Shown here piece by piece: positions 886 to 18,652 of a DNA stretch of 59,871 nt. The stretch lies in the NCBI GenBank assembly GCA_902500775.1, contig CABVRZ010000027.1:1-59871 (forward strand), read 5' to 3'. Both the position numbers and the translations under genes were made by a program. Position 1 is the first letter of the stretch. Each line of letters begins with the position of its first letter. The notes under the pieces are model-generated. The model worked only from the letters and a program-made list of their open reading frames with translations, was not told the DNA's origin and did not search any database. This DNA comes from an uncultured Nitrospira sp. (GTDB lineage: Bacteria; Nitrospirota; Nitrospiria; Nitrospirales; Nitrospiraceae).

Positions 886-927
886 AATGACACCTCCTTA
901 GTTAGACCCACTTCTCCGCAGACTAGT

Positions 928-1681: not shown

Positions 1682-1910
1682 CATTGGTTCGGGCAGAATC
1701 TATTTTATCTTTGAAGCCTTCCTCTCCTCGTGCTCTGGGTATCTCATTAATCTGACGATCACACACTTGCAATAGCGGCGTTGGAGCAGATCGAAATCCA
1801 TTGCATGACTGTTTACACATGAGCATTTGGTGGCCCCCCTATAACCTATTCGTTAACCCGTACCACTTCTTACATTGGGGAGCATCTGGGTATATTTCTA
1901 TCACAACGTC

Positions 1911-1967: not shown

Positions 1968-2005
1968 TCATTCCAGTTGCTGACCATTGAAAGGAGGCGC
2001 TCACC

Positions 2006-2626: not shown

Positions 2627-2652
2627 CGTTCTACGCCCATAAGGAATGACGC

Positions 2653-3099: not shown

Positions 3100-3100
3100 T

Positions 3101-3526: not shown

Positions 3527-3609
3527 AGAGTTACGCGAGACATTGGATCAGAATCCGCGGAGTCCCCGGCTGCTGATCAGACACACTGAAGAAACAGCGA
3601 CCGTTCAAG

Positions 3610-4866
3610 TCACGGCGAACCGTAATCAGCCAGTATGGCTTCAGCCACTTTCCGTCCCGACAACAAGGCCCCATCCAGCGTCCCACTTTCCCGATAATCC
3701 CCACAAAGATACAGCCCCGCAGCCAGGCGCGGTGAGGTGGTGCGGTTCCCGATTGAAAGTACGTCGAGTGGGGGCAGCGCACGCGGAATGCGATCCGTTC
3801 GTAGATGACGCCACTCGTTGACTTGCGAGCCAAACCAGGAGTGAAGATGTTGTCGTACCGCATGTGAAATATCACCATCCGTACCAGCTTGTTCAATCGC
3901 AGTCACTGAGATCAAGGCTCGCCCAGGCGGCGCGTATGATGGCGCTGCCTCACTGAGGACACAGACGGTCCGGACCACCCCATCGTTTTCTCCATTCACC
4001 ATCAACCAGGGTCCGCGTTGCGGCGCAGCCGGCGCATCGAAATAGAGCGTAACCGAGCCACGAGCTGGGGTACTTGATCGATGTTCCCCACGCAATCGGC
4101 CGGCAGTCGCGTCATCAGTCGCCAGTACCAACACATCGGCACTGAGCGACTCCCCAGACTTCAGCACCACACTCGCGCCCTGAACCTGTTGGACGGCGTG
4201 GTTCACGCGAATCGTTCCCGGAGGCAACGTAGCCGCGAGTTGTTGTGCGATAGCGCCTATACCGTCTCGAGGTAAGGCAGTGACTCCTCGGCAAAACGCT
4301 GCCCAAACTAATTCAAAAATCCAGCAAGGCGTGCTCAATTCTGTCTCCAAGAACACGCCGCTGAGAAACGGTCGGAAGAAATGCATTACCATCGCGTCCG
4401 AAAACTCATAAGCTTGGAGCACATCGCGAGTCGGCCTTGTCGGGTCTTTCATCACAGCGCGGAGATGTTGCCGCAGGCTATCCCGTCGCATACGCAGCAT
4501 CCTGAGCTTGTCGGCAATCGTGCCGATGGGGCTGAACACCATCTGTGGAACGTCTTGCGGCCGGCGAAAGGGATCGCTCATCACATGAAAGCGTCCTGCG
4601 TGGCGAATGAGCGCTCCAGCATGAAACGGCCTGAGCTCCAAGGCAGGATAGTTCAGCGTCTTCCGTGCTTCCGGATATCCGGCAGGAAAGACCTGAAATC
4701 CTCGATCGAGTTGAAACCCTTCGACGCGATCCGTGCGGGCACGCCCCCCGATGCCGTCGGACGCTTCAAGGACCGTGCACGCGAGACCAGCGTTCGTCAG
4801 GCGACGCGCACAGGCCAATCCGGCAAGGCCGGCACCGACAATAAACACGTTGGGGGTTGCAGACAT
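3610..4866 (-). CDS. FAD-dependent amine-oxidase/phytoene-desaturase-like oxidoreductase
   Basis: 418 residues. The N-terminus carries the dinucleotide-binding motif GAGLAGLACARRL (residues 11-23), followed by the GIGGRARTDRVEGFQLDRG block typical of flavin amine oxidases, phytoene desaturases and protoporphyrinogen oxidases. The C-terminal FAD motif is LYLCGDYRESGTLDGALLSG. The substrate cannot be deduced. Genes of this type recur in LitR/CarH-controlled light-response clusters beside photolyase. It is the last gene of a long minus-strand run. The ATG has AGGAGGT upstream at a rather long spacing of about 13 bases. Confidence 0.85.
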   Translation of the reverse strand: MSATPNVFIVGAGLAGLACARRLTNAGLACTVLEASDGIGGRARTDRVEGFQLDRGFQVFPAGYPEARKTLNYPALELRPFHAGALIRHAGRFHVMSDPFRRPQDVPQMVFSPIGTIADKLRMLRMRRDSLRQHLRAVMKDPTRPTRDVLQAYEFSDAMVMHFFRPFLSGVFLETELSTPCWIFELVWAAFCRGVTALPRDGIGAIAQQLAATLPPGTIRVNHAVQQVQGASVVLKSGESLSADVLVLATDDATAGRLRGEHRSSTPARGSVTLYFDAPAAPQRGPWLMVNGENDGVVRTVCVLSEAAPSYAPPGRALISVTAIEQAGTDGDISHAVRQHLHSWFGSQVNEWRHLRTDRIPRALPPLDVLSIGNRTTSPRLAAGLYLCGDYRESGTLDGALLSGRKVAEAILADYGSP

Positions 4867-4952
4867 TATGAGTTATTGCACCTCCTGCACCGCTGCGGAA
4901 ATATAGTCACCCAGGCAGTCACACTTGCCCTGGCTTGTTGTAGCAGGTCATA

Positions 4953-5462
4953 TCAGGACCATCTCCGTAGCTGCTCTGATAGGGTTTTGGCGATCAACTG
5001 CAAATCGAACGGCCAGGCATAGCGCAGTTCAACGGTGGGATACAGCGGTCGCAAGTGGTCCAAGATCTCGGGTATCTCGACTTCCGAATGAGAGCCGCCC
5101 GGCGTAAACATCGTCGTCAAGACGGTGATGGATGTCGCGCCTTGTTTCACCAAATCCTCCACGGCTTCTTCCAATGTCGGTGCGCAGAACTCATTGTAGG
5201 CCATAGCAAACAACACACCATTCAGATATGGCTGCAACATAGCCCCCACGGCCTCCAAGCCCGATTGATAGGGATCGGTCTCTTTGGTTCGTGGCCAACG
5301 ACGGATCTTCTGATCCAATTCAACTTCTTCCTGGGACGGCTGCTGTTTGGCTGCACGCCGTTGAGCTTCCAATCGTTTCAATTTCGTGACCAGATCTTGT
5401 GGGCAGTCCTTTGGAATGCCACCATGACCTACCAGGACAACTCCCTTCATTGCATCATTCAT
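4953..5462 (-). CDS. CbiX/SirB-type sirohydrochlorin chelatase
   Basis: 169 residues, short as in single-domain CbiX/SirB enzymes that insert cobalt or iron into sirohydrochlorin for B12 or siroheme. Candidate metal-inserting histidines are in VLVGHGG (near residue 13) and TPGGSHSEVEIP (near 125). A charged insertion (about 30-60) follows the first motif. Its place in a cluster ending with a B12-dependent photoreceptor suggests it may support cobalamin supply, which is inference. A role in siroheme synthesis for nitrite reduction is equally possible. Confidence 0.75.
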   Translation of the reverse strand: MNDAMKGVVLVGHGGIPKDCPQDLVTKLKRLEAQRRAAKQQPSQEEVELDQKIRRWPRTKETDPYQSGLEAVGAMLQPYLNGVLFAMAYNEFCAPTLEEAVEDLVKQGATSITVLTTMFTPGGSHSEVEIPEILDHLRPLYPTVELRYAWPFDLQLIAKTLSEQLRRWS

Positions 5463-5546
5463 GAGTTCCTTCTCCTATGACTAGTACGCACAGCGTCTCG
5501 TGGCCGCGCAATTATGTGAGGATTGACCGATTCTGTACCAAACACG

Positions 5547-6242
5547 TCAACGAGTCTTCTGGAGATGCACATCATCAAAATAGGTCACCGCATCGGATTT
5601 AGTCCACAGCCCGACATGACCTTTGGCGAACCTGTGATCACAGAGCGTAAAAACGGCTTGCTCGTCAAACCATACACGGACATCGCACCCGCGCATCTGG
5701 ACGCGGAGGCGGTGCCACTGTCGGATGTCGATCACATGGTCAAAGTTTTGGATCATGTGCCGCACACCGTTGACCACCCGGTAAATCCGGATGTTCTGCT
5801 CTAATGGATTGGCTCGTACAAGATAGTAATTTCGCTCGTCAGCTGCTCGCCAAATAAGCCCCCCTCCCATATCCGCCTTTCCAGCAATGGGCAAGAGCTT
5901 GACGCTCAGATCGATATCCTCAGCCTCCGTACCTTGCACAAGAACCAGCTTGTACGCATGCTCAGCTCCCTTCCCGTGAAGTTGGGCCAATACATGCGGT
6001 GGACTGGTGGCCTTGTCGGTTGAGATCACTTGCCAGTCGCCGGCTGGTCGTCCATCGAACAAAGTCCCGATGTGAAAACCAGGTGGGGCCATGCCTGGGT
6101 TGTTTTGGTCAAAATCCCAAACCTGAACTTCTGAAGCAGCGGACGACGCATGGCCGAATAGGAGCAGTAGCACACAGCCGTACCAGCGCCACACTGATGG
6201 GTTGAGAGAAAATGCCCCATCATTGTGCACGCTTAACGCCAT
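5547..6242 (-). CDS. Secreted DUF1080/LamG-like beta-sandwich protein
   Basis: 231 residues from the ATG at 6242, which overlaps the end of the upstream gene and is preceded by GGAAGAAG. A signal peptide (about residues 17-35, ending SSAASE) is followed by a concanavalin-like fold of the DUF1080 type: LFDGRPAGDW, GGGLIWRAADERNYYLVRA, and a closing G-H-V-G-L-W-T-K-S-D motif with FDDVHL. Such domains bind or hydrolyse sugars in some families, but no catalytic residues are evident here. Translation is probably coupled to the upstream unknown secreted protein. An upstream start at 6257 is possible. Confidence 0.75.
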   Translation of the reverse strand: MALSVHNDGAFSLNPSVWRWYGCVLLLLFGHASSAASEVQVWDFDQNNPGMAPPGFHIGTLFDGRPAGDWQVISTDKATSPPHVLAQLHGKGAEHAYKLVLVQGTEAEDIDLSVKLLPIAGKADMGGGLIWRAADERNYYLVRANPLEQNIRIYRVVNGVRHMIQNFDHVIDIRQWHRLRVQMRGCDVRVWFDEQAVFTLCDHRFAKGHVGLWTKSDAVTYFDDVHLQKTR

Positions 6243-6970
6243 GTCACTTCTTCCCAACAGAGATGGATAAAGGTCTCATAGGGTGGAAAATTCTTGGGGT
6301 TCTGCTCTTTCGATCGAACCCACAGATCGATTTCCATTCCAGCTGGATCGGTCTCCCCCCCCGGCAGCATGCGTTTCACCGGATACTGGACCTGGTGAGT
6401 GTCAGGATCCCGTGAACGTTCCATCACCATAAAATGGGCATCATAGTCCTTGTAGAGCACTTCATCGTTCTTGAAAACCGTGGCGGTTCCCCAGCCTGCC
6501 AGGTACAACCACGTTTTCGGATAGAGCGGATCGCCGTTGTTCGAATCACCATGCTCATAGACCCTCGTGGCAATTCCACCATCATGGAAAGGCTGTTTCG
6601 CAGCGAACCGGTCAAAGACGATCCGAAAGTGATCCGTTCCTTCGACAAACTGCGACGTCACAAGACCACTGTTTGTGACTTCGTTGACGTCGATCTCAAT
6701 CGTACCCTGTACCGGAGTGAGATATTTGCCGGCATAATCGAGATGGTCCCAAGGAGATTGATCCTTCATACTGCCGATCAAGAATGGGGCACCACCCTTA
6801 AGCCTGAACTTGCCGCTGTAGAAGGGGTGCTCAGTTGCATTAAAAATCCTGGTGCCCTCGGTTCCTTTTGGCGTGCCAAATAAGCCTTCTTCTGCGAAGG
6901 CGGCGGACAGAACTACAGTGCTGAAGGTGAAGCTTGCGACACATAGCCACAATGGTTTCAGTGATCTCAT
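6233..6970 (-). CDS. Secreted protein of unknown function
   Basis: 245 residues from the ATG at 6970, chosen because AAAGGAGAATCT lies just upstream and a clean signal peptide (about 1-25, ending SAAFAEE) follows. The longer frame upstream of this codon looks non-coding. The mature domain is rich in aromatic and charged residues and has a G-W-G-T-A-T-V-F segment, with two short blocks (EVLYKDYDAHFMVMERSRD and MLPGGETDPAGMEIDLWV) that would suit a beta-sandwich. I do not recognise the family. It overlaps the next gene by ten bases, so the two secreted proteins probably work together. Confidence 0.8.
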   Translation of the reverse strand: MRSLKPLWLCVASFTFSTVVLSAAFAEEGLFGTPKGTEGTRIFNATEHPFYSGKFRLKGGAPFLIGSMKDQSPWDHLDYAGKYLTPVQGTIEIDVNEVTNSGLVTSQFVEGTDHFRIVFDRFAAKQPFHDGGIATRVYEHGDSNNGDPLYPKTWLYLAGWGTATVFKNDEVLYKDYDAHFMVMERSRDPDTHQVQYPVKRMLPGGETDPAGMEIDLWVRSKEQNPKNFPPYETFIHLCWEEVTWR

Positions 6971-7064
6971 AGATTCTCCTTTGCCCCTAGGTGTGCGAGA
7001 TCTCATCCCCATCAGGAAAAGGAACGAGAGTTCTTCCAGTCCAACGCGAAAGTGTTTACCACGC

Positions 7065-7433
7065 TCACACTGAGTCTGTTGTGGCCAAGTATTCCTGGAG
7101 ATTGGTCTTTCCATAACGACTTCCCGGATAGACGATTCGAATAAACCTCGCCACGAGGGCCATCACCTTTTTGACCGCAGGGGTCTTCTCAGGATCGGTG
7201 GCAGGCAGCAACCGAACAGTGATGGCCTTGTCGTGCACCTTGAGCTGAACAAAGAAACTGCTCGATGCGCCCTGCTCGATTACCACAGACTCGAGCAAGG
7301 CATCTTTCCCGTTTCTGGACATGTAGAATTCCTGAATTTTGAGTATCTCGGCTCCAGTCCGCTGAAGAATCGGCGTGAAGTTCTGATATAACGCCTGAAG
7401 ATCTCCGGCTTCTTCGATGACGACATGGGGCAT
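7065..7433 (-). CDS. Tautomerase-superfamily protein related to CHMI isomerases
   Basis: 122 residues beginning MPHVVIEE. The N-terminal Met-Pro-His-x-Val-Ile-Glu pattern is that of 5-carboxymethyl-2-hydroxymuconate isomerase, where the unmasked Pro-1 is the catalytic base. The length also fits. The remainder diverges from classical CHMI, so the substrate is unknown. It lies between the secreted protein and the DUF523-DUF1722 gene on the same strand, with 12 bases to the latter. The ribosome site is GAAAGGGACG. Confidence 0.6.
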   Translation of the reverse strand: MPHVVIEEAGDLQALYQNFTPILQRTGAEILKIQEFYMSRNGKDALLESVVIEQGASSSFFVQLKVHDKAITVRLLPATDPEKTPAVKKVMALVARFIRIVYPGSRYGKTNLQEYLATTDSV

Positions 7434-7445
7434 GTGCGTCCCTTT

Positions 7446-8399
7446 CTACACGTGATTCCGCAACATCAGTTCCTTGGGATGCGGATTGAGATACACCTGG
7501 TCACGGATGTAGCTCAGGTCGAAGACATGGACATAGTGCTTCATCAGTGTCAGCGGAACGATTAAGGGAGTCAGCCCTCGATGATAATCGCTGATCACGC
7601 CCAACAGCTCGGCCTTTTCACGTGAGTCCATTCGCTTCTTGAAGTGGCCCACGATATGTTGCAAGACATTCACGTGTTTCGAGACTGTCGCTCTCACGGC
7701 CAGTGTCTTCATGAAAAGATCTGCATACTTCACCGTCAGGTCCTTGGGACGATAGCATTCGGCCTGAGCGACGAGCTGTCCCAGCGTCTTGTACTGTTGT
7801 GGACTATGGGACAACAGCAAGTACTTATGGATGGTGTGAAAGCGAATGAGCTCTTGTCTGTTGAGCCCATTCTGTAGCAAGTCCTGCAGCCGACGATAGC
7901 AAAACACCCGTTCGATGAAATTCTCGCGAAGTGACGGGTCACAGAGTCGGCCTTCCTCTTCAACGGGAATGAGAGGGAACTCGTTTCGAAAGGCCTTTGC
8001 AAAGATTCCGGACGCGCTGTGACTAGGCATTCCCTGAGCCGTATACACGCGCACCCGTTCGAGTCCACAACTGGGGGAGCCTCTCTTGAAGACAAATCCT
8101 GACAGGTTCAATTTGCCGAGTGAGTCGAGACGCTCCTCAATCGTGGTCTCCATCGCTAGCGTGTGATCGTCCTTGCTCGTAACCGTCATGAGCCTCGGGT
8201 GCCGCGGATTCCCGACAAGCCGCATGGCTTCCCGAGGGACACCCAATCCCGCCTCGACCTCAGGACAGACTGACACCCATTCGACGTAGCAGCCCAATAC
8301 ATCGGTCAAGAAACGGTCCTGCTTATGTCCTCCGTCAAAGCGGATTTCATCACCAAGAAGACAGCGGCTGATACCAAGGCGAAGCAGGGAGCTTGTCAT
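7446..8399 (-). CDS. DUF523-DUF1722 (YbgA-like) protein
   Basis: 317 residues from the ATG at 8399, whose ATGA overlaps the photolyase stop. The N-terminal half (about 5-150) is DUF523: ISRCLLGDEIRFDGGHK, CPEVEAGLGVPRE, and FKRGSPSCGLERV with conserved cysteines. The C-terminal half (about 195-305) is DUF1722: FHTIHKYLLLSHSPQQYKTLG. This fusion is a frequent partner of photolyase (as in E. coli ybgA-phr) and of LitR-type regulators. Its biochemical role is not established. The overlapping start shows translational coupling with the photolyase. Confidence 0.9.
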   Translation of the reverse strand: MTSSLLRLGISRCLLGDEIRFDGGHKQDRFLTDVLGCYVEWVSVCPEVEAGLGVPREAMRLVGNPRHPRLMTVTSKDDHTLAMETTIEERLDSLGKLNLSGFVFKRGSPSCGLERVRVYTAQGMPSHSASGIFAKAFRNEFPLIPVEEEGRLCDPSLRENFIERVFCYRRLQDLLQNGLNRQELIRFHTIHKYLLLSHSPQQYKTLGQLVAQAECYRPKDLTVKYADLFMKTLAVRATVSKHVNVLQHIVGHFKKRMDSREKAELLGVISDYHRGLTPLIVPLTLMKHYVHVFDLSYIRDQVYLNPHPKELMLRNHV

Positions 8400-9841
8400 C
8401 TTGTTGCCTCTTGCTGTCCGAGATTGAGATATTCCTGACGCGCAAGTTGATGATCCACCACCGGTGACGGATAATTGATCCCGATTCTGCAATGCGCCTG
8501 TTCTTGCTCCTCAGGGGTCATGAGATGTGGCTCATGGATCCTTCTTGACGAAACAGAAACAAGTTCAGGAACATACTGACGAATGTAGACCCCATCCGGA
8601 TCAAACTTCCTGCTCTGAAGCGCAGGATTGAAAATCCGATAGCCCGGCATGCTATCTGTTCCGGTTGACGCACACCACTGCCAATTCCCGTTATTGGCCG
8701 CCAGATCTGCATCGAGCAGGTGACGCATGAAGTACTGCTCACCACTCTGCCAGTCGATCCGGAGATCTTTAATGAGAAAGGACGCCACGATCATGCGGAC
8801 GCGGTTGTGCATCCATCCTGTCTGATTGAGCTGCCGCATCCCAGCATCCACGATGGGATACCCCGTATTCCCATCGCACCATGCTCGAAAGAGTCGATCC
8901 CGTTCCGGGCCAGGATCTCGTGATGGCGGCACAGACGTATTTCGGAACGGTCCGTCAACGACATGCGGAAATGCCGCTAAGACTTGCTGAAAGAATTCAC
9001 GCCAAATCAATTCATCGATCCAAGTGAGGACATCAGTCCGAGAGACGGGTCCTGTGTGCGACAGACTTTCCAACGCCGCATGCACAGCGATCTTCGAGGA
9101 CAGGGTCCCGAAACGAAGATGAGGGGACAACTTGGAGCTCCCTTCACTCGCAGGACGATTCCGACCATCGGCATACCGGTGGATGGGGCCTTCGACAAAC
9201 CAACGCAATTGTTCGTGGGCACAACGCTCTCCCGGTGTAATCCAGGGAACGAGGTGCTCGTAGCCCAGCTCATTGGCTGTTGGAAGCGGCACAGATGACA
9301 GCCTGACAGCTTTCCTTGTGATCATTGAGGGATGTCGGACGGCATGGACTGTCGGTTTGATCGCATGCCACCTGGCCCACCAGCGAGCACGATACGCGCT
9401 ATAGCGCTGCAACGGTTCTCCCGTGGCGCCCCGCACTTCCTCTGCCTCAAACACCACGTGGTCTTTGTAGGTCTTGGTGGCTATACCTTCCCGAGCCAAT
9501 CGATTCTGCATCGCCTGATCTCGCATGAGTGCACGCGGCTCATAATCTCGGTTCCAATACACAACATCGGCTTCCCATTCGAGAGCCGCTCGTAACACTT
9601 CATCAACTTGGAACCCACGCCGCCACTGCATTGCCAGTCCCAGCTCCGCAAGGGATGATTGGAGCTCCTCCAAACATCCCAGCATGAAGTTCACACAGGC
9701 AGCCCCGAACCCATGCGATTGCAGCAAGGGCTCATCGAACACGAATAGTGGAATGACCTCGTCACATTCCTCACAGGCCGCGGCGAACGCCGGTTGGTCG
9801 TCGAGGCGAAGGTCTCTTCTGAACCAGACGATCCCACGCAT
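8396..9841 (-). CDS. phrB: Deoxyribodipyrimidine photolyase (class I)
   Basis: Uses blue light and FADH to split cyclobutane pyrimidine dimers in DNA. The 481-residue length is typical. The N-terminal antenna domain opens GIVWFRRDLRLDDQPAF. The FAD domain has WIDELIWREFF, the signature WMHNRVRMIVASFLIKDL, and the cofactor loop DADLAANNGNWQWCASTG, which contains a tryptophan of the electron-transfer path. It is translationally coupled to the DUF523-DUF1722 gene. The arrangement resembles known light-inducible repair operons. Confidence 0.95.
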   Translation of the reverse strand: MRGIVWFRRDLRLDDQPAFAAACEECDEVIPLFVFDEPLLQSHGFGAACVNFMLGCLEELQSSLAELGLAMQWRRGFQVDEVLRAALEWEADVVYWNRDYEPRALMRDQAMQNRLAREGIATKTYKDHVVFEAEEVRGATGEPLQRYSAYRARWWARWHAIKPTVHAVRHPSMITRKAVRLSSVPLPTANELGYEHLVPWITPGERCAHEQLRWFVEGPIHRYADGRNRPASEGSSKLSPHLRFGTLSSKIAVHAALESLSHTGPVSRTDVLTWIDELIWREFFQQVLAAFPHVVDGPFRNTSVPPSRDPGPERDRLFRAWCDGNTGYPIVDAGMRQLNQTGWMHNRVRMIVASFLIKDLRIDWQSGEQYFMRHLLDADLAANNGNWQWCASTGTDSMPGYRIFNPALQSRKFDPDGVYIRQYVPELVSVSSRRIHEPHLMTPEEQEQAHCRIGINYPSPVVDHQLARQEYLNLGQQEATR

Positions 9842-9865
9842 CTGTTGCCCCTTTACTATGACTGT

Positions 9866-10315
9866 TTATCGTCCCGCGCTTCCATGCGATCCGGCTGGTC
9901 CTTTTGGCAGTTTGTCGCCGGCCGCACGTGTGACGGCTAACTCGCGAAGTCCGTTCTCCCCCTTAACTCCTAACTTCACGACGGTTCCCACGTCACCTCG
10001 GATCATGTGGACCACCTGCTCATAGCTCTTTCCCGTCACAGCAGTGCCATCGACACTCACAACCTCATCTCCATGTTGTAGTCCAGCCTGATGGGCAGGT
10101 CCCTCCGGATGGACCATACCGACATAGAGGACGGCTGGATCGCCGACATGCTCAGCTCCAATCTGGAGGGAAATACCAATGACACCATGAGGAAGCTTGA
10201 TATCGCTTCCATGCCCATAAGGAGCCTGACCCGTGTGTTGCTCAGCCATAGCCGAGCTGGCAACGAGAAGGCCCATGATCAGTGCTGTCGCAATAGGGAC
10301 ACCGAACATTCTCAT
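9866..10315 (-). CDS. Exported PDZ-domain protein
   Basis: 149 residues with a signal peptide (about 1-24, ending SSAMAEQ) and a single PDZ domain over about 40-130. The peptide-binding loop region is IGISLQIG, then PEGPAHQAGLQHGDEVVSVDGTAV. No protease domain is attached, so it is probably a periplasmic adaptor or scaffold. A clear GGAGGT precedes the ATG. It follows the 31-residue membrane peptide gene by 18 bases and precedes photolyase by 24. Confidence 0.85.
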   Translation of the reverse strand: MRMFGVPIATALIMGLLVASSAMAEQHTGQAPYGHGSDIKLPHGVIGISLQIGAEHVGDPAVLYVGMVHPEGPAHQAGLQHGDEVVSVDGTAVTGKSYEQVVHMIRGDVGTVVKLGVKGENGLRELAVTRAAGDKLPKGPAGSHGSAGR

Positions 10316-10333
10316 GACCGTACCTCCTGTGAG

Positions 10334-10429
10334 CTACAAAGAAACGACCAATCCGAGTAAGCAGAGTGTCGCCACCACTAAACATCCCGTCATCAATCCT
10401 GTCACAACGCAGATGGCACAAGCTCTCAT
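10334..10429 (-). CDS. 31-residue hydrophobic membrane peptide
   Basis: A short frame starting MRACAICVVTGLMTG and ending LGLVVSL, almost entirely one membrane helix with four cysteines. It is supported by a near-perfect ribosome site (AAGGAGGTGGG) six to twelve bases before the ATG. It is directly upstream of the PDZ gene and downstream of the epimerase gene. The sequence CCCAC-AAGGAG-GTGGG could fold with the ribosome site in the loop, which may modulate translation. The function is unknown and gene status rests on the ribosome site and composition. Confidence 0.55.
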   Translation of the reverse strand: MRACAICVVTGLMTGCLVVATLCLLGLVVSL

Positions 10430-10506
10430 CAGCCCACCTCCTTGTGGGTGGCATCAGAGGATCTCTCCTCATATAGCGCTCCTGCGCCATAATTTTCGGC
10501 CGTCGA

Positions 10507-11445
10507 TCATGTCATATGCTCCACGGCTATCGGCCTCCTGAGGACGGCTCGCAATGCTGATTCCAACGTCGGATAATGAAACATGTAGCCTCCCGTCATA
10601 GCTTTTGTCGGCATCACCCGCTGGCCGGTTGTCATCAATGTGCCCAACTCACCGAGTAGCAGATTCAACGCAAACGTCGGAACGGGAAGCCAAGAAGGCC
10701 GGTGAAGCACCCGCCCAAGAACTTCACAAAACGTCTTCATCCTCACTGGTTCTGGAGCCACGGCATTGACCGGGCCAGAAACCGTCGGTGTACTGAGAGC
10801 CCACTGGATCAGACCGATGTGATCATCTCGATGAATCCAGGAAACCCACTGGCTTCCCGGCATGATGGGACCGCCGGCAAAGAATCGAAACGGCAACAGC
10901 ATCTTGGGCAACGCCCCACCGTCTTGTTCCAGGACCATTCCAGTGCGTAGTGTGATGACCCGCGCCCCAAACTCCGCAGCCCGAAGGGCCTCTGATTCCC
11001 ATGCAAGGCACAAATCGGCCAAGAAACCCTCACCCCGCGCCGCCCCTTCATTCAGAACACGATCGCCGCTGGCGCCGTAATATCCGATGCCGGACGCGTT
11101 GATGAACGTGACCGGGTTTGAGGACCAGCGTGAGAGGGCCCGAACTAACAAACGGGTAGTGAGGACTCGACTATCGGTGATAAATTGCTTGCGTGCGTGT
11201 GTCCAACGTGCGTCGGCTATCGAAGCCCCAGCCAAATTAATGACGGCATCCGCGGCTCCTAGGACTTGCTCCCAGGGGCCGGAGTCCCGCATGTTCCATT
11301 CGACTGCTTGAATCGGCAGCTCCGGCCGATGCTGGACCTGACCCGTCTGCCTGGTCAAAACCGTAATCTGATGGCCTCTCTGGATGAGGGAGGCGCACAG
11401 CGCTCGACCAATGAATCCTGTCCCTCCAGCGATGACGATTTTCAT
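10507..11445 (-). CDS. TIGR01777-family NAD(P)-dependent epimerase (YfcH/SDR39U1-like)
   Basis: 312 residues starting MKIVIAGGTGFIGRAL, chosen because GAAGGATAG precedes this ATG. The N-terminal Rossmann motif GGTGFIG binds NAD(P). A short-chain dehydrogenase active-site region (NASGIGYYG) is followed by a C-terminal DUF1731-like part ending FHYPTLESALRAVL. The substrate of this family is not established. Members often sit in light-response clusters with photolyase and FAD oxidoreductases, as here. Confidence 0.88.
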   Translation of the reverse strand: MKIVIAGGTGFIGRALCASLIQRGHQITVLTRQTGQVQHRPELPIQAVEWNMRDSGPWEQVLGAADAVINLAGASIADARWTHARKQFITDSRVLTTRLLVRALSRWSSNPVTFINASGIGYYGASGDRVLNEGAARGEGFLADLCLAWESEALRAAEFGARVITLRTGMVLEQDGGALPKMLLPFRFFAGGPIMPGSQWVSWIHRDDHIGLIQWALSTPTVSGPVNAVAPEPVRMKTFCEVLGRVLHRPSWLPVPTFALNLLLGELGTLMTTGQRVMPTKAMTGGYMFHYPTLESALRAVLRRPIAVEHMT

Positions 11446-11526
11446 AAGTCTATCCTTCGACAATACTCTCACTCAACATCGTCGGCATCTCAGGTATGAG
11501 TGTGACCAATCAGATCCCTGGTCGCC

Positions 11527-11826
11527 TTAATTACCTGTACCGGGTCTCTTGTGACCCACTTGTCGTGCAAACTTCCGCTTCTTCGGCCCATAAACGGAGT
11601 GGGGTAATGGCTTCAGCCGATTCGCCAGCACCAGCTGATCGATGAATTCTCCACAATTCGTGCACCGTAACCCCTTGAAGATAACTCCACCTGCATCGCT
11701 CTTCAAATCTGCACAGTGCGCGATAACCATCAACCCTCCGCACCGCATGCAAGGATTCTGTCTTGTCGGATGAGGCAGAGCGGATACATTGTATGGTCTC
11801 CCAGTATTTGCCATGGGAATCCCCAT
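11527..11826 (-). CDS. Small zinc-ribbon protein
   Basis: 99 residues with two CxxC pairs (CMRCGG near 26 and CTNCGE near 54) expected to hold one zinc, and a basic C-terminal tail ending RQVGHKRPG. A second frame over the same bases lacks conserved features and I discard it. No clear ribosome site is present at the ATG at 11826, and an internal start (MANTG) is possible. It follows a 42-residue membrane peptide in the same direction. Function unknown. Confidence 0.65.
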   Translation of the reverse strand: MGIPMANTGRPYNVSALPHPTRQNPCMRCGGLMVIAHCADLKSDAGGVIFKGLRCTNCGEFIDQLVLANRLKPLPHSVYGPKKRKFARQVGHKRPGTGN

Positions 11827-11853
11827 TACTGATGAACAAGCAATCAGCCATTT

Positions 11854-11982
11854 TTACTTCAGAGTGGACCGTTTATCTTTTGTCCGCCTCGTTACAGCCA
11901 CGTTCACGGTCTGAAAGAGTCCAGCCACCAGTGCACAGGTCAGGAATCCCGTCGCAAGCAAAAAGACCATGCTCATATCCAT
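11854..11982 (-). CDS. 42-residue membrane peptide
   Basis: Begins MDMSMVFLLATGFLTC with a single hydrophobic helix (about 4-30) and ends in a strongly basic tail, RRTKDKRSTLK, giving an N-out/C-in prediction. A strong ribosome site (AAAGGAGAG) precedes the ATG. It is the first gene of the long minus-strand run reaching to 3610. A possible promoter upstream has TTGGTG and TGTAAT about 18 bases apart near 12015-12045. The function is unknown. Confidence 0.55.
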   Translation of the reverse strand: MDMSMVFLLATGFLTCALVAGLFQTVNVAVTRRTKDKRSTLK

Positions 11983-12127
11983 GATTCTCTCCTTTCACCT
12001 CTCACAAATGGAAACTACCTATTACAACTACAATGCTTTTAGTTCACCAAGGAGACAGGCTCCTCCCTCACGAGGAGCACCTGCCCCCTTAGCGGGCGAC
12101 GCCGTGCGGAGTAGCAGCGCCACCTCA

Positions 12128-12163
12128 GCAAACATGAGCCGGCCACCACACCGGCTTGTTTGC
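12128..12163 (-). terminator. Long hairpin after the SUMF1-like operon
   Basis: GCAAACA plus GCCGG pair with CCGGC plus TGTTTGC around CCACCACA, with small bulges. It lies about 50 bases past the stop of the upstream minus-strand operon. There is no clear T-run on the minus side, so termination may be Rho-assisted. A second small hairpin (GCTCCTC/GAGGAGC) lies at 12059-12078. Confidence 0.45.
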
Positions 12164-12213
12164 TATATATTTCATGCTGGCACCATCCTTGATGTTCGAG
12201 TCATGCGCTCCAT

Positions 12214-13041
12214 TCACTGAAGACTCCGGGCACATCGAAATCCGGTCCCATGGGTCTGGAGGGCAAATCCGCCACGACCTCGCGCGACTGTCGTGATATC
12301 GGCCGCCGGGCTATGCCAAGAGCCGCCGCGGATAGAACGCACTACACCCTTCTTGTCCGGCCCTATCGGATTGTGCAGAGGGGCGCTCTTGTAGTACTCC
12401 GCGTCATACCAGTCCGCCACCCACTCCCTAGCATTGCCGGCCATGTCCTTGACGCCATACGGCGAGTCGCCGTCTGGCAGAGATCCCACCGGCTGAAGCG
12501 TCTTCTCCTCTTCCCATTCCCGATCAAAGTTCGAGCGCTTCGCGGTCGGTGGCTCATTACCCCAGGGGTAGAGACGGCCGTCGGTGCCGCGCGCCGCTTT
12601 TTCCCACTCCGCCTCGGTCGGCAGTCGCTTCTTGACCCAACTGCAATAGGCTTTCGCGTCGTACCAGGTTGTCTGCACCACCGGAAGCTGCTCAATGGTC
12701 TTTATCGATTGCAGGGGACCACTTCCGTAGGGATTAGGAGGAGGTCGATGCCCTGTTGCTTTCACGAACTCCATGTATCGTTGATTCGTGACTTCGACTT
12801 GATCGATCAAGAATGCATCAAGGTACACGGATCGTTGTGGCCGCTCATCGGTTCGCCCTTTTCCCTCTGTAGACCCCATCAAGAATTCTCCATCCGGGAT
12901 CGTGACCATCGGGACGAGGTCCCCTTCTTTCGACAAGGAGGACGCTTCGACAGCTAGCGACTGCACGAACACCAAGATCGCGGCAACTGCCGTCGTCATT
13001 TTGTTGAATCGTGTTGAGCTGCGCCAGAAACCTGTGATCAT
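12214..13041 (-). CDS. Exported SUMF1/FGE-like domain protein lacking the catalytic cysteine pair
   Basis: 275 residues: a signal or anchor segment (about 14-34), then a formylglycine-generating-enzyme-like fold. Landmarks are PDGEFLMGSTEG, LPTEAEWEKAARG, YPWGNEPP, DMAGNAREWVADWY, IRGGSWHSP and a closing GTGFRCARS. Only the second of the two cysteines used by true FGE is present, in GFRC. The position of the first is not cysteine, so sulfatase maturation is unlikely. Such domains also serve as binding modules. The ATGA overlap with the His-rich gene upstream indicates coupled translation. Confidence 0.85.
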   Translation of the reverse strand: MITGFWRSSTRFNKMTTAVAAILVFVQSLAVEASSLSKEGDLVPMVTIPDGEFLMGSTEGKGRTDERPQRSVYLDAFLIDQVEVTNQRYMEFVKATGHRPPPNPYGSGPLQSIKTIEQLPVVQTTWYDAKAYCSWVKKRLPTEAEWEKAARGTDGRLYPWGNEPPTAKRSNFDREWEEEKTLQPVGSLPDGDSPYGVKDMAGNAREWVADWYDAEYYKSAPLHNPIGPDKKGVVRSIRGGSWHSPAADITTVARGRGGFALQTHGTGFRCARSLQ

Positions 13042-13409
13042 TTCTTCGGCTCCTTGCTCCCCTCGATGGCGTGGGTCGTATGCAATCGAACTTGCTTGAT
13101 CAGGTACTGCACTTGGCCGGTGTGACCATGTTCGGCAGCCGCGTGAGCCTGAGTAATGAGGGTTCGCGCCTCATGCAAATGGTCCTCGATTTCGGCCTGC
13201 AAGCTAGGCGAGGCCACCGTGCCTCCTAGCGCCGCCCCGTGATAGACCTCCCAGGCATGATCCACATCGTGTTCGGCTTCATGCACGGCCCTCAGACTTT
13301 CCTGATGTTGGTGACCGGCGGATTCAAGAGGACCGGCCGTCGAAGGTGAGGACCCGAGCAGCGCAATGACAACTATCTCTCGAAAGAGCACGCTACGGTG
13401 CTTCATCAC
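13038..13409 (-). CDS. Periplasmic histidine-rich SmbP-like protein
   Basis: 123 residues with a signal peptide (about 1-25). The mature part is helical with histidines at regular spacing: GHQHQESLRAVHEAEHDVDHAWEVYH is one run (shown only in part by its motif H-x-H-x6-H), and HLHEARTLITQAHAAAEHGH another. This spacing recalls the small metal-binding protein SmbP of Nitrosomonas, which binds copper and other metals in the periplasm. It lies upstream of, and overlaps, a SUMF1-like gene. A metal-buffering role near copper-dependent AMO is inference. Confidence 0.65.
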   Translation of the reverse strand: MMKHRSVLFREIVVIALLGSSPSTAGPLESAGHQHQESLRAVHEAEHDVDHAWEVYHGAALGGTVASPSLQAEIEDHLHEARTLITQAHAAAEHGHTGQVQYLIKQVRLHTTHAIEGSKEPKK

Positions 13410-13471
13410 CGCACCTCCATCACGATCAATTCTGGAGTGAATGCAAACGTCACTCTGAGATAGATAGAAAC

Positions 13472-14440
13472 TTATCTCTTTTGCTTCATGGTCTTTCTAA
13501 TTAAATCCCGCGTTGCGAGATACTCCTTGTTATCTGCGTCTACGGCTAACGCTTTTTCGATAAATGCCAGAGCCTCGGCATTCTTTTCGGCTCCCATGGC
13601 AACGAGAGTCTGAATGAATGCATCTCGGCCCGCTTGAACGGCTTCATCAGGGGCAGTCCCTGCCGACTTTGCACAACGGAAGCCAAGACCAACTCCGTAT
13701 GAATTATTGTCCGGCTGATTCCAAAATCGGTGACTCGTATGGAGTGATGTTTCTGGGGCAAGCCAAGAGCCTCCCCTCAAAACCTTGACTGGCCCTTGAT
13801 TGGCAAAATTGTACCCTTGAGCAGCGCCCGTTGGATTCAGTGCAACACTCTGTTTGTAGTAGGAAGGTTCATACCAATCATCCACCCATTCGAACACGTT
13901 GCCGGCCATGTTATAGACACCATAACCACTCACTCCCTCCGGGTAAGAATCGACTGGCATTGTCCGGCCGACGTGTTGACCATAGTTGGCTCTTTTAGGA
14001 TCGATCGCGTGACCCCACGGATAGTGGTTGTCCCCTGCTGGTCCTTTTGCAGCCCGTTCCCATTCCGCCTCCGTCGGTAGTCGCTTTCCCTCCCACCTGC
14101 AGAATGCATGAGCGTCGGTCCAGCTCACGCCGACGACCGGCTGGGTCGCCTTACTCAGACGTGGATCGTCCCAATAGGCTGGGGCCGGATAACTCGCGGC
14201 CTTCATAAACTCTTTGTACCGAGCATTGGAAGCTTCATACTTGTCGATGAGATAGGCATCGAGGACGACCTGATGCTTGGCTTCATCCGCATGTTCGCTG
14301 CTTCCCATGGTGAACTCGCCCTTCGGGATGAGCACCATGTCCTTGTCGCCACCTGGTGGGTCAGCTGCTGCTACAAGCGAGACGACTCCCACTGTGATCG
14401 CTATGCCTACCACTAGTTGAGTAATCGTTTGACTCCGCAT
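13472..14440 (-). CDS. Exported SUMF1/FGE-like protein with a short C-terminal helical repeat
   Basis: 322 residues: a signal peptide (about 1-25), a SUMF1 fold (about 34-260) with LIPKGEFTMGSSE, LPTEAEWERAAKG, YPWGHAID, NMAGNVFEWVDDWY, LRGGSWLAP and GLGFRCAKS, then a helical tail (about 270-322) resembling one TPR-type pair. As in the neighbouring paralogue the first FGE catalytic cysteine is replaced; histidine falls near that spot in TSHRFWNQ. The start has AAGGAGGG. Its promoter is divergent from the light-regulator gene and overlaps the operator repeats, leaving a leader of about 370 bases. Confidence 0.85.
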   Translation of the reverse strand: MRSQTITQLVVGIAITVGVVSLVAAADPPGGDKDMVLIPKGEFTMGSSEHADEAKHQVVLDAYLIDKYEASNARYKEFMKAASYPAPAYWDDPRLSKATQPVVGVSWTDAHAFCRWEGKRLPTEAEWERAAKGPAGDNHYPWGHAIDPKRANYGQHVGRTMPVDSYPEGVSGYGVYNMAGNVFEWVDDWYEPSYYKQSVALNPTGAAQGYNFANQGPVKVLRGGSWLAPETSLHTSHRFWNQPDNNSYGVGLGFRCAKSAGTAPDEAVQAGRDAFIQTLVAMGAEKNAEALAFIEKALAVDADNKEYLATRDLIRKTMKQKR

Positions 14441-14790
14441 TTGTACCCTCCTTGGTTATGTCAATGCCCAAGCGATAGCGTGTTAGGCTGCGACCTGAGG
14501 CTTTATTCCAGAAACTGGTGTTTCCATTGATAGAAGCGAGTTTGAAACGAGCCCGATCTGTCGATTCCTCAATATGACCCCGTCAATGACATCACCACAC
14601 TGCACACCGCGTCTTGTGCCGCCGTCGAGCTTGCTTGCGACGCTTCATAGATCAATTGACACTTCTCCCATCATGAAGTCGCTACATCTCGTGCAGGTGT
14701 GTTGCGACGTGACTCGGGAACTCTGGAGTGCAACGGTGCGGCTGTTTCTACTCGTGCTTGTGATGATCATGAGGTCCTCAATACTCCAGA

Positions 14791-14885
14791 TGTCCAATGT
14801 ATGACTTATGTTATGTCCAATGTATAACCCTATATGTCCAATGTGTCAACTGTTAAATGTTGTAATATTTGACAAACATTGGACA
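14791..14885. promoter_or_regulatory. CarH/LitR-type operator array with 11-bp-phased repeats
   Basis: TGTCCAATGT occurs at 14791-14800, 14814-14823 and 14835-14844, and inverted (ACATTGGACA) at 14876-14885. Spacings of 23 and 21 bases are about two helical turns. Between the last two lie the looser units TGTCAA (14844-14849) and TTTGACAAA (14868-14876). Read on the minus strand, TGTCCAATGTT is followed directly by TGTCAAATATT, giving adjacent 11-bp units. CarH tetramers are known to bind tandem 11-bp units over their own promoter, and this array covers both divergent promoters here. Confidence 0.7.
14821..14849 (-). promoter_or_regulatory. Minus-strand promoter toward the SUMF1-like gene
   Basis: On the minus strand TTGACA (bases 14849-14844) is followed after exactly 17 bases by TATACA (14826-14821). 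Repeat units TGTCCAATGT lie in the spacer and over the -10 box, the positions expected for a repressor. The predicted transcript has a leader of about 370 bases (14441-14814) in which I see no convincing gene. A 41-codon minus frame starting near 14771 has a GAGG site but no recognisable protein character. Confidence 0.55.
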
Positions 14886-14897
14886 GTTATCTAAGTT
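14869..14897 (+). promoter_or_regulatory. Promoter of the CarH/LitR-like regulator gene
   Basis: A perfect -35 TTGACA (14869-14874) stands 17 bases before a weak -10 TAAGTT (14892-14897). The start point would be near 14904, only a few bases before the ATG at 14908, so the message may be nearly leaderless. No good ribosome site is seen. The inverted operator unit at 14876-14885 lies inside the spacer, which fits autorepression. Confidence 0.5.
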
Positions 14898-14907
14898 AGA
14901 AGTCGAT

Positions 14908-15825
14908 ATGAATAAACATAGAATTCATAGAGTTGCGAAACTCACAGGGCTTTCGAAGGATGTGATCAGGGTTTGGGAACGGAGATATAGCCTCGTCAAA
15001 CCTTTACGCAGCGCTAATCGTTATCGGGAATACACAGATGAGGACGTCTCCCTCTTTCGCTTTTTAAAGGAGGAGCTGGATCGTGGTCAGACTATTGGCG
15101 GGCTCGCAATAGAAGGACGGGATTCGTTGCTTCAACGCATGCGGGCGAACTCAATCCCAAAACTGCTGGAATTTGCCCCCCACAGCTCGTTGCTCGACGG
15201 ACTGATTTCCCGACTTGATCCGCTCGATAAAAGCCGGTTTGAGCAGCAACTGAATGCGGCCATCGCCGTGATCCCGTTCGAAGAAGCGGTGCAACGGATT
15301 CTCCTCCCCTTACAACGGCGGGTGGGAGAGCTGTGGCATGAAGGACGAGTAAACATCGCCATTGAACATTACGTGACGAAAATTATTCAGCAGAAACTCT
15401 TCTCCGTGATCAATCAGCTGCCTGCCAACGAGTTTGGCCCCCGCGTGCTGATTGCCTGTCCCGAAGGCGAGTATCATGAAATCGGGGCACAAGCCGTGAC
15501 ATACCTTGCTGCCGCGCGTGGCTGTCATGTGTACTACTTGGGGCCAAATCTCCCATTGGCCGACTTGGAGGTGTTGTGCGAACGCGTGCATCCAGACTTG
15601 ATTCTTCTGTCCTTGACGGAAACGAAGTCGGAGGAAGCAGCACTGCACTTGCTCCATAACTTACGAACGCTCTCTCAGCGCTGGCCGGTCGCCGTGGGCG
15701 GGAAAGGCGCATGTACCTTAGGGCCGCTCCTCGAGAATACAGCAATTGATTTACTTGATGATCTCGGCACACTCCATAACCGCCTTGCAAATCTTCTCTC
15801 GACCAACCAGCGCGCGTTTCACTAA
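14908..15825 (+). CDS. CarH/LitR-type MerR-family regulator with B12-binding photoreceptor domain
   Basis: 305 residues from the ATG at 14908; the frame can be read further upstream but would run through the promoter. The N-terminal MerR winged helix (about 3-70) opens HRVAKLTGLSKDVIRVWERRY. A helical bundle holds the light-sensor signature Trp143-x9-Glu153-His154, and the cobalamin fold carries Glu188-x-His190-x2-Gly193 and an LGPNLPLADL loop. These are the residues that position adenosylcobalamin in CarH. In that family the dark tetramer represses DNA and light breaks it apart. The operator array beside it supports autorepression, and the matching site at 1914-1949 points to a regulon. Confidence 0.9.
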   Translation: MNKHRIHRVAKLTGLSKDVIRVWERRYSLVKPLRSANRYREYTDEDVSLFRFLKEELDRGQTIGGLAIEGRDSLLQRMRANSIPKLLEFAPHSSLLDGLISRLDPLDKSRFEQQLNAAIAVIPFEEAVQRILLPLQRRVGELWHEGRVNIAIEHYVTKIIQQKLFSVINQLPANEFGPRVLIACPEGEYHEIGAQAVTYLAAARGCHVYYLGPNLPLADLEVLCERVHPDLILLSLTETKSEEAALHLLHNLRTLSQRWPVAVGGKGACTLGPLLENTAIDLLDDLGTLHNRLANLLSTNQRAFH

Positions 15826-15964
15826 CTCCTCTCCCTACCATTTTGATGCTAGACCACGCGCAATGACCTTCGGTGAGCACACTCATCCCTTCAACCGCAG
15901 CACTATGAAGCCCACCGGATGGAATACTGAGACAGGGCAGTTCGGGAATGAGGCTGACTTAGGC

Positions 15965-16873
15965 CTACCGAAGAAACTCAATCGGCTGTGGAGAGGCCTC
16001 AACCGGCTCGTGTGGAGCCGGTTCGTGATCCAGCCAGACATCACCTTCCGGCTGATCGGTCACCGTTGCAGTCAACGAAGTAAAATCAAACAGATGCGGG
16101 TCCATTAAGAGGGACGGCGCAACATTTGAAACAGCCGCGGCAATGCTGTCTGAACAACCGGGTGACTCCTGTTCCCACTGTTGGAGAAAGACCTTCACTT
16201 TTTTTCGCTTTAAGTCTTCCTGCGACCCGCAGAGGTCGCAGGGAATGATGGGAAAGCCTCGCAGCTCCGCATACCGCGCCAGATCCGCTTCCTTGACGAA
16301 GGCCAATGGGCGAATGACGAGATGCCGGCCGTCTTTGGAACGCAGCTTCGGCGGAATGGCCTTGAGCTTGCCGGTATAAAAGAGATTCAAGAACAAGGTT
16401 TCAACAATATCGTCACGGTGATGGCCGAGCGCAATCTTCGTGGCACCAAGCTCTGAGGCGATGCGATAGAGATGCCCCCGCCGTAGCCGTGAACAGAGTG
16501 AGCAAGTCGTCTGCCCTTCGGGGATCAGTCTCTTAACGATCGAGTAGGTATCGCGTGCCTCGATATGGAATGGGATGCCGCGGCTGGTGAGATACTGTGG
16601 CAGCACCTGCTCAGGAAAGCCTGGTTGGCGCTGATCTAGGTTGACCGCAATCAGATCAAACTGGATCGGCGCCCGCTGTTGCAAGACAACCAAGATATCT
16701 AACAACCCATAACTATCTTTTCCGCCAGATAAGCACACCATCACTTTGTCGCCTTCCTCAATGAGGCGATAGTCCGCGATCGCCTGTCCGACCAGCCGGC
16801 ACAGGCGTGTTTGCATCTTCTCTGTTGCTTCGTCTAGTTTAGGGACAACGGTTTGAACCGATGGTATGCTCAT
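15965..16873 (-). CDS. ttcA: tRNA 2-thiocytidine synthetase TtcA-type ATP pyrophosphatase
   Basis: 302 residues. The PP-loop [13 protein letters not shown] (about 49-61) activates the tRNA base with [14 protein letters not shown] motif (about 122) and the distal CDLCG near 214 are the cysteine pairs that hold the iron-sulfur cluster used in TtcA-like tRNA thiolation. TtcA modifies C32 in several tRNAs. It is transcribed away from the small phosphatase gene at 16944, with a shared 70-base gap. Other TtcA/TtuA-type enzymes cannot be fully excluded. Confidence 0.85.
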
Positions 16874-16943
16874 AATCTGATTGTACCGGTCCCATTATAG
16901 TGCTGTCGACTACTCGTCCCATTGAAAGGTAAACAGATCATCT

Positions 16944-17435
16944 ATGGCCCAATTGATCCTCTTCGTCTGTACCGGCAATGTCTTCCGAAGTATGGCAGCT
17001 GAATATGCGTTGCGAGCTCAGCAGGGAAAACCATCGACCTATCACATAGAATCAGCGGGTATCGACGCCAAGTCTCCAAAAGTTCATCCTGTAATCCTCA
17101 ACCGGCTGCGCCTCAAAGGCACCGATCCATCTGCCCATGTTCCCCGCCCCCTGACAAAGGAATTGATCCAACGAAGTACTCTCATCATCGCCATGGGTCT
17201 AGACCATCGCGAGTTTATTCAGACCAAGTTCGGGCTGACCGTCCCTCTCTTTAATGAAGTCGCTTTTGGAGAGGACTCACCGATCCTCGACCTCCACGAA
17301 GCCCTGCCGAATTGGGAACGGGATGTCGTCGAAGCACGGGAATATGTGGAGTCGGTTATCGATCACATCTGGGACTCCATACCAGCTTTGAGGGCTCGAC
17401 TTTCGCTGTTTTCTGAACCCCAGAATTCCCGCTGA
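16944..17435 (+). CDS. Low-molecular-weight protein phosphatase
   Basis: 163 residues with the catalytic P-loop Cys9-x5-Arg15 in VCTGNVFRS, and a later Asp in PILDLHEALPNWERD that would serve as general acid. The family removes phosphate from tyrosine, and in some bacteria from arginine. The usual serine/threonine-rich P-loop is replaced by TGNVF, which is seen in part of the family. It is divergent from ttcA and precedes the metallopeptidase gene by about 155 bases without an obvious terminator. The substrate is unknown. Confidence 0.85.
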   Translation: MAQLILFVCTGNVFRSMAAEYALRAQQGKPSTYHIESAGIDAKSPKVHPVILNRLRLKGTDPSAHVPRPLTKELIQRSTLIIAMGLDHREFIQTKFGLTVPLFNEVAFGEDSPILDLHEALPNWERDVVEAREYVESVIDHIWDSIPALRARLSLFSEPQNSR

Positions 17436-17590
17436 CCGTCACTTCGGTTCAAAGTGGTACGGTTTCGGACAATTTCTTCCTCCTGTCGCGCTTTCTCCAA
17501 CAACAACAGTGCCCTCACCAGCAACCTACCGCATGGATGCTATAGTTTTTTATGCACTCTGCCGACAGACCATAGTGGAAGGCTGTTTCC

Positions 17591-18652
17591 ATGGACCGCG
17601 CGATTTCCGACATACTCAAGACTCCGGTCGTCAGCCAAGATGACGCCCCCTGGGCCTCATGGTCCGACGAGGCGCTCTTGGATCTGCCGATGTGCGACCT
17701 ACACGTCGGGTTGAAAGGTAGTTTTGTTGAACCGCCCATCGCAGAATTGACCCGTGAGCTGGAAGACCGTCGTTTGCAGTTTCGTCCACATTTCTGGCTC
17801 TCTAACGAGTGGTTTACTCCCGATGGAGTGCCTGGTATTGCCATTCCCTTTTATCTGGCTCACCCTCGATTGGCGAAACTCGAATTGGCTCAGATGTTAG
17901 AAGTGGAAGGCGGAACAACCGAGTGGTGTTTGCGGATTCTCCGTCACGAAGCTGGTCATGCCATCGAGAACGCCTATAAGATCCGCCGCCGCAAGACCAG
18001 GCAGGACATGTTTGGCAAGTCATCACAACGGTATCCGCGCTATTACTCTCCACGACCCTACAGCCGCAGTTTCGTCCGGCACCTAGATTTGTGGTATGCG
18101 CAAAGCCACCCCGACGAAGATTTTGCCGAGACCTTTGCGGTATGGCTGACGCCGGACTCGCTCTGGGAAGAACGGTATCGGGGATGGCCGGTCTTGAAAA
18201 AACTTCGGTACGTCGATGGATTTATGAAGGAACTCCAAGGCGTCTCACCAACTGTGACGACCTGCGAAGAAGTTGATCCGCTTTCTGATCTGAAGAAGAC
18301 GCTGCGTGAGCATTATGAACACAAACGACGACATTATGGAATCGAGCGACAGCTGCAGTATGACCCGGATTTGAAGCGACTGTTCTCCACAACACCAAGC
18401 CACATGAACAAACCCAGCGCCGCGACGTTTCTCAATCGCTTCCGCCGAGAGGTTCGGAAAAAAGTGGCAAGTTGGACCGGCGAGTACCAGTACACTATCG
18501 ACCAGGTGCTGGAAGACATGATTCAGCGGTGCCGCGAATTGAATCTTCGGGTCCCTGTGGCAGAAGAACAGGCCAAACTGGACTTTACGATTTTGTTGAC
18601 CGTCCACACGATGAACTTTCTACGAAGCGGGCGACACCGGGTGGCGTTATGA
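17591..18652 (+). CDS. Putative zinc metallopeptidase
   Basis: 353 residues. The metal site is RHEAGHAIEN (about 118-127, HExxH form) and a downstream DEDFAETFAVWLTP, whose glutamate is placed like the third ligand of gluzincins. No signal peptide is visible, so it should be cytosolic. The stop overlaps the ATG of an ATP-grasp ligase (ATGA), so the two are made together and probably act on the same peptide-like substrate. The substrate is not known. It is an unusual pairing of a peptidase and a ligase. Confidence 0.8.
   Translation: MDRAISDILKTPVVSQDDAPWASWSDEALLDLPMCDLHVGLKGSFVEPPIAELTRELEDRRLQFRPHFWLSNEWFTPDGVPGIAIPFYLAHPRLAKLELAQMLEVEGGTTEWCLRILRHEAGHAIENAYKIRRRKTRQDMFGKSSQRYPRYYSPRPYSRSFVRHLDLWYAQSHPDEDFAETFAVWLTPDSLWEERYRGWPVLKKLRYVDGFMKELQGVSPTVTTCEEVDPLSDLKKTLREHYEHKRRHYGIERQLQYDPDLKRLFSTTPSHMNKPSAATFLNRFRREVRKKVASWTGEYQYTIDQVLEDMIQRCRELNLRVPVAEEQAKLDFTILLTVHTMNFLRSGRHRVAL

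Follow-up and report, generated by a model that had tools for sequence, protein, structure and literature searches.

A predicted CarH-type bidirectional operator and a second matching site delimit a putative light-stress gene island in Nitrospira

The divergent promoter region at positions 14790-14897 of the analyzed window (the whole stretch of DNA, 59,871 nt) is probably an autoregulatory bidirectional operator of the CarH type (class I LitR) which, together with a second site at 1907-1949, would make the island 67-15825 a light-stress regulon of comammox Nitrospira. This reading is drawn from sequence and conservation. We consider the island as one regulon because the same half-operator found in the divergent promoter (operator 1) recurs at 1907-1949 (operator 2). 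A first-pass annotation of the window had already proposed a CarH operator, a prediction strengthened by the CarH-type regulator encoded next door; it was too narrow in missing operator 2 and the light-protection/amoC island that lies between the two operators. The features are listed in Table 1.

Table 1. Genes, promoters and predicted operator elements of the island (window coordinates; counts refer to 47 aligned promoters)
Feature	Position	Strand	Remarks
AmoC, ammonia monooxygenase subunit C	67-885	-	PF04896, E 2.7e-106
AmoE-like membrane protein	928-1590	-	paralogue of one near the main amo genes (G000:C11); no Pfam match
Operator 2, back-to-back half-operators	1907-1949	both arms	between the glutathione peroxidase and AmoE-like genes
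Glutathione peroxidase	2006-2626	+	first gene of operator 2 plus operon; PF00255, E 2.2e-39
Two Adhesin_E domain proteins	2653-3099 and 3101-3526	+	
Flavin amine oxidase / protoporphyrinogen-oxidase-like	3610-4866	-	PF01593
RudS-like TudS-DUF1722 (tRNA 4-thiouridine desulfidase family)	7446-8492	-	PF04463 and PF08349; start codon uncertain
DNA photolyase	8396-9841	-	PF03441, E 5.8e-84; PF00875
PDZ-domain protein	9866-10315	-	
TIGR01777/YfcH family oxidoreductase	10507-11472	-	
ZnR2, CxxC small protein	11527-11826	-	position conserved; no Pfam match
FGE2, second SUMF1/FGE-sulfatase domain protein	12214-13041	-	PF03781, E 5e-57
Small His-rich conserved protein	13038-13409	-	conserved cluster position; Pfam match below cut-off only
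FGE1, SUMF1/FGE-sulfatase domain	13472-14440	-	PF03781, E 1.6e-53
ZnR1, small CxxC zinc-ribbon-like protein, first divergent gene	14483-14770	-	41 aa left after TGA
Operator 1, minus-arm unit A	14790-14800	-	3' of likely start site; TnnACA at -52, 24/47 at consensus offset
Operator 1, minus-arm unit B	14813-14823	-	overlaps minus -10; TnnACA at -30, 36/47
Minus promoter -10, TATACA	14821-14826	-	17-bp spacer; at -23 in 32/47
Operator 1, minus-arm unit C (ACATTGGACAT)	14834-14844	-	in minus-promoter spacer; TnnACA at -9, 32/47
Minus promoter -35, TTGACA	14844-14849	-	43/47
Operator 1, plus arm	14865-14886	+	two tandem 11-bp units, ATATTTGACAA / ACATTGGACAG
Presumed -10 of carH promoter	14892-14897	+	TAAGTT, weak in window; by reading
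carH-type regulator, 305 aa	14908-15825	+	MerR HTH, four-helix B12-binding_2, B12-binding

The regulator gene starts with an ATG at 14908, and its product has the Pfam domains PF13411, PF02607 and PF02310 above cut-off. The closest solved full-length relative is CarH of T. thermophilus (5c8d; phmmer E 3.4e-30). The best library match of the window regulator is the NCBIfam CarH equivalog (E 4.3e-39), with 134.5 bits against a naming cut-off of 400, a shortfall that counts against our main reading; we thus call the protein CarH-type, and not a proven CarH equivalog. The signatures characteristic of light-sensing cobalamin domains (GxxW, EH, GxxH and GxxxP; PMC11796333) are all four present (GELW 140, EH 153, GEYH 187, GPNLP 212), and the full set is also found in 47/49 distinct orthologues and 9/10 paralogues. 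Most genomes of the genus have a carH orthologue, and the named close matches are Nitrospira, N. moscoviensis included. The window genome also encodes a corrinoid adenosyltransferase, which in principle allows synthesis of AdoCbl from cobalamin. The idea that the paralogues (~50% identity) lack the B12 ligand, as CarA does, was rejected: they read EEHDIA, with the His kept and only the Gly changed. In one clade (G044-G050), ~4 kb downstream of carH, there is another MerR-like ORF, which is small (120-185 aa) and has ~32% identity to the CarH HTH. Convergent with carH, and kept beside it in close relatives, is the gene for TtcA (tRNA 2-thiocytidine synthetase; 15965-16873, minus strand); with RudS, it makes two tRNA-thiolation genes around the light sensor.

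Operator 1 contains four exact copies of TGTCCAATGT, three direct and one inverted, precisely where the first-pass annotation had placed them: 14791-14800, 14814-14823 and 14835-14844 on the plus strand (start-to-start spacing 23 and 21) and 14876-14885 on the minus strand. The window has no further exact copy, and the 4.5-Mb genome contains 13 in total. In dinucleotide shuffles, no 10-mer occurred four times within 147 bp (0/5000), and no second stretch of this kind was found elsewhere in the window. The repeat had been suggested as a possible Nitrospira-specific variant, a proposal that is not supported: read on the opposite strand (ACATTGGACAT), it conforms to the degenerate 11-bp unit published for CarH operators, nnnnTnnACAn (PMC9304148). 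Altogether, five units of operator 1 fit this consensus. Those of the plus arm (14865-14875 and 14876-14886) stand in strict 11-bp tandem, the first one containing the TTGACA -35 of the carH promoter (14869-14874, plus strand), whereas those of the minus arm are two turns apart (21 and 23 bp in the window, mostly 21 and 22 bp in relatives), separated by degenerate sequence. The description of the array as 11-bp-phased thus strictly applies to the plus arm only. Since the plus arm matches the published unit and the minus arm consists of alternate units, we are dealing with a known operator type in a lopsided layout rather than with a new motif; judged by its sequence, operator 1 is ordinary in kind and unusual in the layout of its arms.

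Published CarH operators have 3-4 tandem units, or fewer full units plus degenerate ones, lying over the -35 or the -10 (PMC9304148). At operator 1 the repeats overlap both divergent TTGACA promoters, as had been claimed, with the carH -35 inside the first plus-arm unit and the minus -10 under unit B. Reading of the sequence confirmed the minus promoter (TTGACA-17-TATACA) and the TTGACA of the plus promoter, whose -10 in the window is the poor TAAGTT; relatives such as L068 have TTGACA-17-TATAAT instead. Neither promoter was picked up by an automatic promoter scan, whose filter their -10 elements do not pass. Some features of operator 1 count against our main reading: the minus arm is without strict 11-bp tandem units, the minus -35 is out of register with unit C, 9 bp away, and the carH -10 is weak in the window genome. 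Simple counts of TnnACA are unconvincing alone (the total was reached by 194/5000 shuffles, and one tandem pair by 335/5000), and the case therefore rests on the exact repeats and on conservation. The class II LitR consensus TGTACA-N12-TGTACA is absent by reading from 14770-14916, and an Rfam search over window positions 6000-18000 gave no riboswitch. Three strict tandem TnnACA units were seen once elsewhere, on contig C19, upstream of an integrase-like gene.

We aligned 47 Nitrospira promoter regions upstream of the orthologous carH-type gene. The plus-arm TTGACA is found in 46/47, with a second TnnACA exactly 11 bp further in 36/47; the elements of the minus side recur at the offsets and in the numbers given in Table 1. 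Conserved blocks reach 1.5-2 bits per column while the flanks are near 0.2 bits. That so many promoters retain the array while their flanks diverge indicates an operator, not chance. The first-pass annotation had in part staked its reading on the presence of the repeats in orthologous promoters, where they are indeed conserved. N. moscoviensis has the array as well (L023/L057). The array is also found before the carH paralogues of ~50% identity, and with different divergent genes (zinc-ribbon or NapC/NrfH-type cytochrome). Further copies precede the zinc-ribbon/FGE (SUMF1) operon where the adjacent carH has decayed or no intact one is present, so that the operator follows its targets and not merely the carH coding sequence. 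In several species (L063, L064, L054 and G025:C53) a second carH (~50% identity) has its own operator copy, and in species with two carH genes the operators face different operons, zinc-ribbon/FGE versus NapC-type cytochrome.

The divergent genes have a conserved order: zinc-ribbon, SUMF1-type, small protein and second SUMF1-type, often followed by the TIGR01777 oxidoreductase, PDZ protein, photolyase and RudS; many species have both photolyase and RudS. Some species carry instead a NapC/NrfH-type cytochrome as divergent gene, and others two carH genes, each with an operator. In the window, ZnR1 is interrupted by a TGA at 14647-14645 (minus strand), where relatives have TGG (Trp) and an intact protein of 95 aa; the nonsense codon may reflect either recent mutation or a mistake in the assembly. 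The operon starting at operator 1 would extend to the photolyase, and a terminator-like stem after FGE2 (12156-12137), a point against our main reading, may stop it before that gene. Photolyase and RudS are known from LitR regulons (PMC11417400, PMC9758184), the family of the RudS-like protein being described in PMC11417400. No carotenoid genes were recognised in the islands read.

We found operator 2 by scanning the genus for the half-operator and then reading the extra sites. Its minus arm has TTGACA (1923-1918) and, 11 bp on, TGGACG (1912-1907); its plus arm has TTGACA (1932-1937) and TGGACA (1944-1949), the latter 12 bp on in the window, not 11, which counts against our main reading. The 17-bp half-operator TTGACAAACNNTNGACA has two window matches at <=2 mismatches, one per operator (0.39 expected; >=2 in 5/100 shuffles), a single arm of operator 2 thus lying within this distance. 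In relatives, operator 2 is a near-perfect palindrome of two half-operators, e.g. GATGTCCATAGTTTGTCAA...TTGACAAACTATGGACATC. Across the genus we see a recurring divergent promoter between glutathione peroxidase and either a sigma-70 factor or the AmoE-like gene; the AmoE-like arrangement occurs in ten genomes, and in 10/10 the site has <=1 mismatch. In many Nitrospira (L157, L159, L162, L163, L171, L175 and L176), a site of the operator 2 type adjoins a sigma-70 family factor gene (~420 aa), mostly opposite glutathione peroxidase, which suggests an alternative sigma factor as a member of the light regulon. The closest homologue in the window genome (54%, contig C2) has no operator-2-type site upstream by eye.

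The amoC gene at the far end of the island appears to be a stand-alone copy, of a sort known in comammox (PMC6311188). In G005 (L247), one long contig holds the whole island from carH to amoC, followed by unrelated genes, which places this amoC outside amoCAB. The window contig ends 66 bp past amoC, and here the stand-alone status is taken by homology to G005. The contig with the main amo genes (C11) likewise stops within an amoC, and where the two copies overlap they are 96% identical; since both contigs end at amoC, near-identical copies of this gene probably break the assemblies. Photoreceptor control of a stand-alone amoC was not found in the literature searched, nor was any link of CarH to the genus Nitrospira.

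Across genomes, the presence of the half-operator went along with that of carH: the 17-mer was found in 42/54 genomes with carH and in 3/25 without detected carH (Fisher, p 4.5e-8), and a stricter 15-mer in 30/54 and 1/25 (p 4.7e-6), values that overstate independence, as the species are related, and serve as guides only. At glutathione peroxidase promoters alone the difference was not significant (21/25 with carH, 2/5 without; p 0.07); among these five genomes without detected carH, G043 and G075 are 76-80% complete. G017, also one of the five, was rejected as a counter-example because a contig end falls inside its carH. Another candidate counter-example, G006 (94% complete), has a perfect 17-mer (L254, contig C27) before a sigma-factor gene and no detected carH, and we count it against the main reading. 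The other half-operator matches in the window genome, with 2-3 mismatches, look like chance (28 versus 15 in a reversed control); the best of them, on contig C5, lies within a signalling gene.

By homology, we infer binding of the regulator to these sites, dependence on AdoCbl and light, and repression as the sign of control. In the dark, oligomers of AdoCbl-loaded CarH would sit on the TnnACA units of both operators, covering the carH -35 and, at the divergent promoter, the -10 and the spacer, so that RNA polymerase would be blocked on both sides of operator 1. UV, blue or green light would break the cobalt-carbon bond and release CarH, and carH and the divergent zinc-ribbon/SUMF1 operon, towards the TIGR01777 oxidoreductase, photolyase and RudS, would then be transcribed. 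Through operator 2, the glutathione peroxidase operon and the AmoE-like/AmoC pair would come under the same control, giving four promoters in all, each with its -35, spacer or -10 covered in the dark; regulation of amoC by operator 2 is thus a prediction. More tentatively, and as something just short of an even bet, we propose that in comammox Nitrospira a B12 photoreceptor repressor directly controls the stand-alone amoE-amoC. Light would then induce photolyase, RudS and glutathione peroxidase along with a spare subunit of ammonia monooxygenase, as a programmed repair response to the well-known photoinhibition of this enzyme.

CarH might instead control operator 1 only, with operator 2 bound by another regulator that has a similar site and amoC outside light control. 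We consider this unlikely, while giving it real weight, since operator 2 lies 13 kb from carH, just one of its arms in the window resembles the 17-mer closely, and many AmoE-like paralogues are without the site; in most genomes that have the AmoE-like paralogue elsewhere, it has no preceding operator, which also counts against our main reading. However, TTGACAAAC-NN-TNGACA is common to both operators, with the -35 identically placed, both are kept in the same genomes and at the two ends of one gene island, and the operator 2 arms of relatives are full matches with an 11-bp offset. It is less likely still that operator 1 is as we describe it and the regulator, though related to LitR/CarH, has given up B12 and answers a partner protein or another signal. 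Loss of B12 dependence is known within the family from CarA and class II LitR (PMC9304148, PMC9758184), but the cobalamin signatures, His ligand included, are kept in nearly all orthologues, the window regulator has both B12 domains whereas class II LitR is without one, and operator 1 is unlike the class II sites.

Two other explanations seem much less probable. The MerR domain at the N-terminus of the regulator would allow a classical activator that bends a long-spacer promoter. Such activators act on 19-20 bp spacers, and the 17-bp spacers of both promoters argue against this, as do sites that are head-to-tail TnnACA units over the -35 and -10, not a dyad between them; we regard this option as very improbable. 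We give almost no credence to the repeats being neutral remnants or debris of promoter duplication with no regulatory role: TnnACA counts are just mildly over chance, but this idea is already contradicted by the contrast between conserved blocks and flanks, and by the same operator standing before paralogues of ~50% identity.

Nitrifiers, including the comammox N. inopinata, are strongly inhibited by light (PMC9797979). If the preferred reading of a CarH-type regulon is correct, it names a sensor for the light response of nitrifiers and supplies two operators and a set of genes, stand-alone amoC included. It also carries CarH-type control beyond carotenoid genes, to a photoprotection island ending in a subunit of a key metabolic enzyme. 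A second copy of the switch faces a gene that encodes a subunit of the ammonia-oxidising enzyme; this subunit may thus be light-induced. Operator 2 and the link to amoC make the array more interesting than the first-pass annotation had claimed.

The closest known systems are CarH of T. thermophilus and B. megaterium (class I LitR), which share with the window regulator the MerR and two B12 domains and the signature residues, and whose operators share the TnnACA unit and a -35 inside a unit. They have 3-4 tandem units, whereas Nitrospira has two in strict tandem and three that are two turns apart, and their targets differ from those in Nitrospira, which are photoprotection genes and possibly amoC. 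In Sorangiineae and Nannocystineae (PMC9304148), carH and its target are likewise divergent, and the operators combine one to three full units with degenerate ones; Nitrospira, from another phylum, has other genes, more full units and, where the island ends, a second matching operator. The class II LitR proteins of Pseudomonas (PplR/PmlR) are similar in having a regulon with photolyase and RudS and dark repression over the -35, but they are without one B12 domain and bind TGTACA-N12-TGTACA (PMC9758184). Finally, the singleton amoC3 of Nitrosomonas europaea, as described in PMC6311188 (citing Berube and Stahl 2012), is also a stand-alone amoC outside the main operon that is tied to stress; there it goes with a stress sigma factor, whereas in Nitrospira the gene has a predicted B12 photoreceptor operator and an amoE-like partner.
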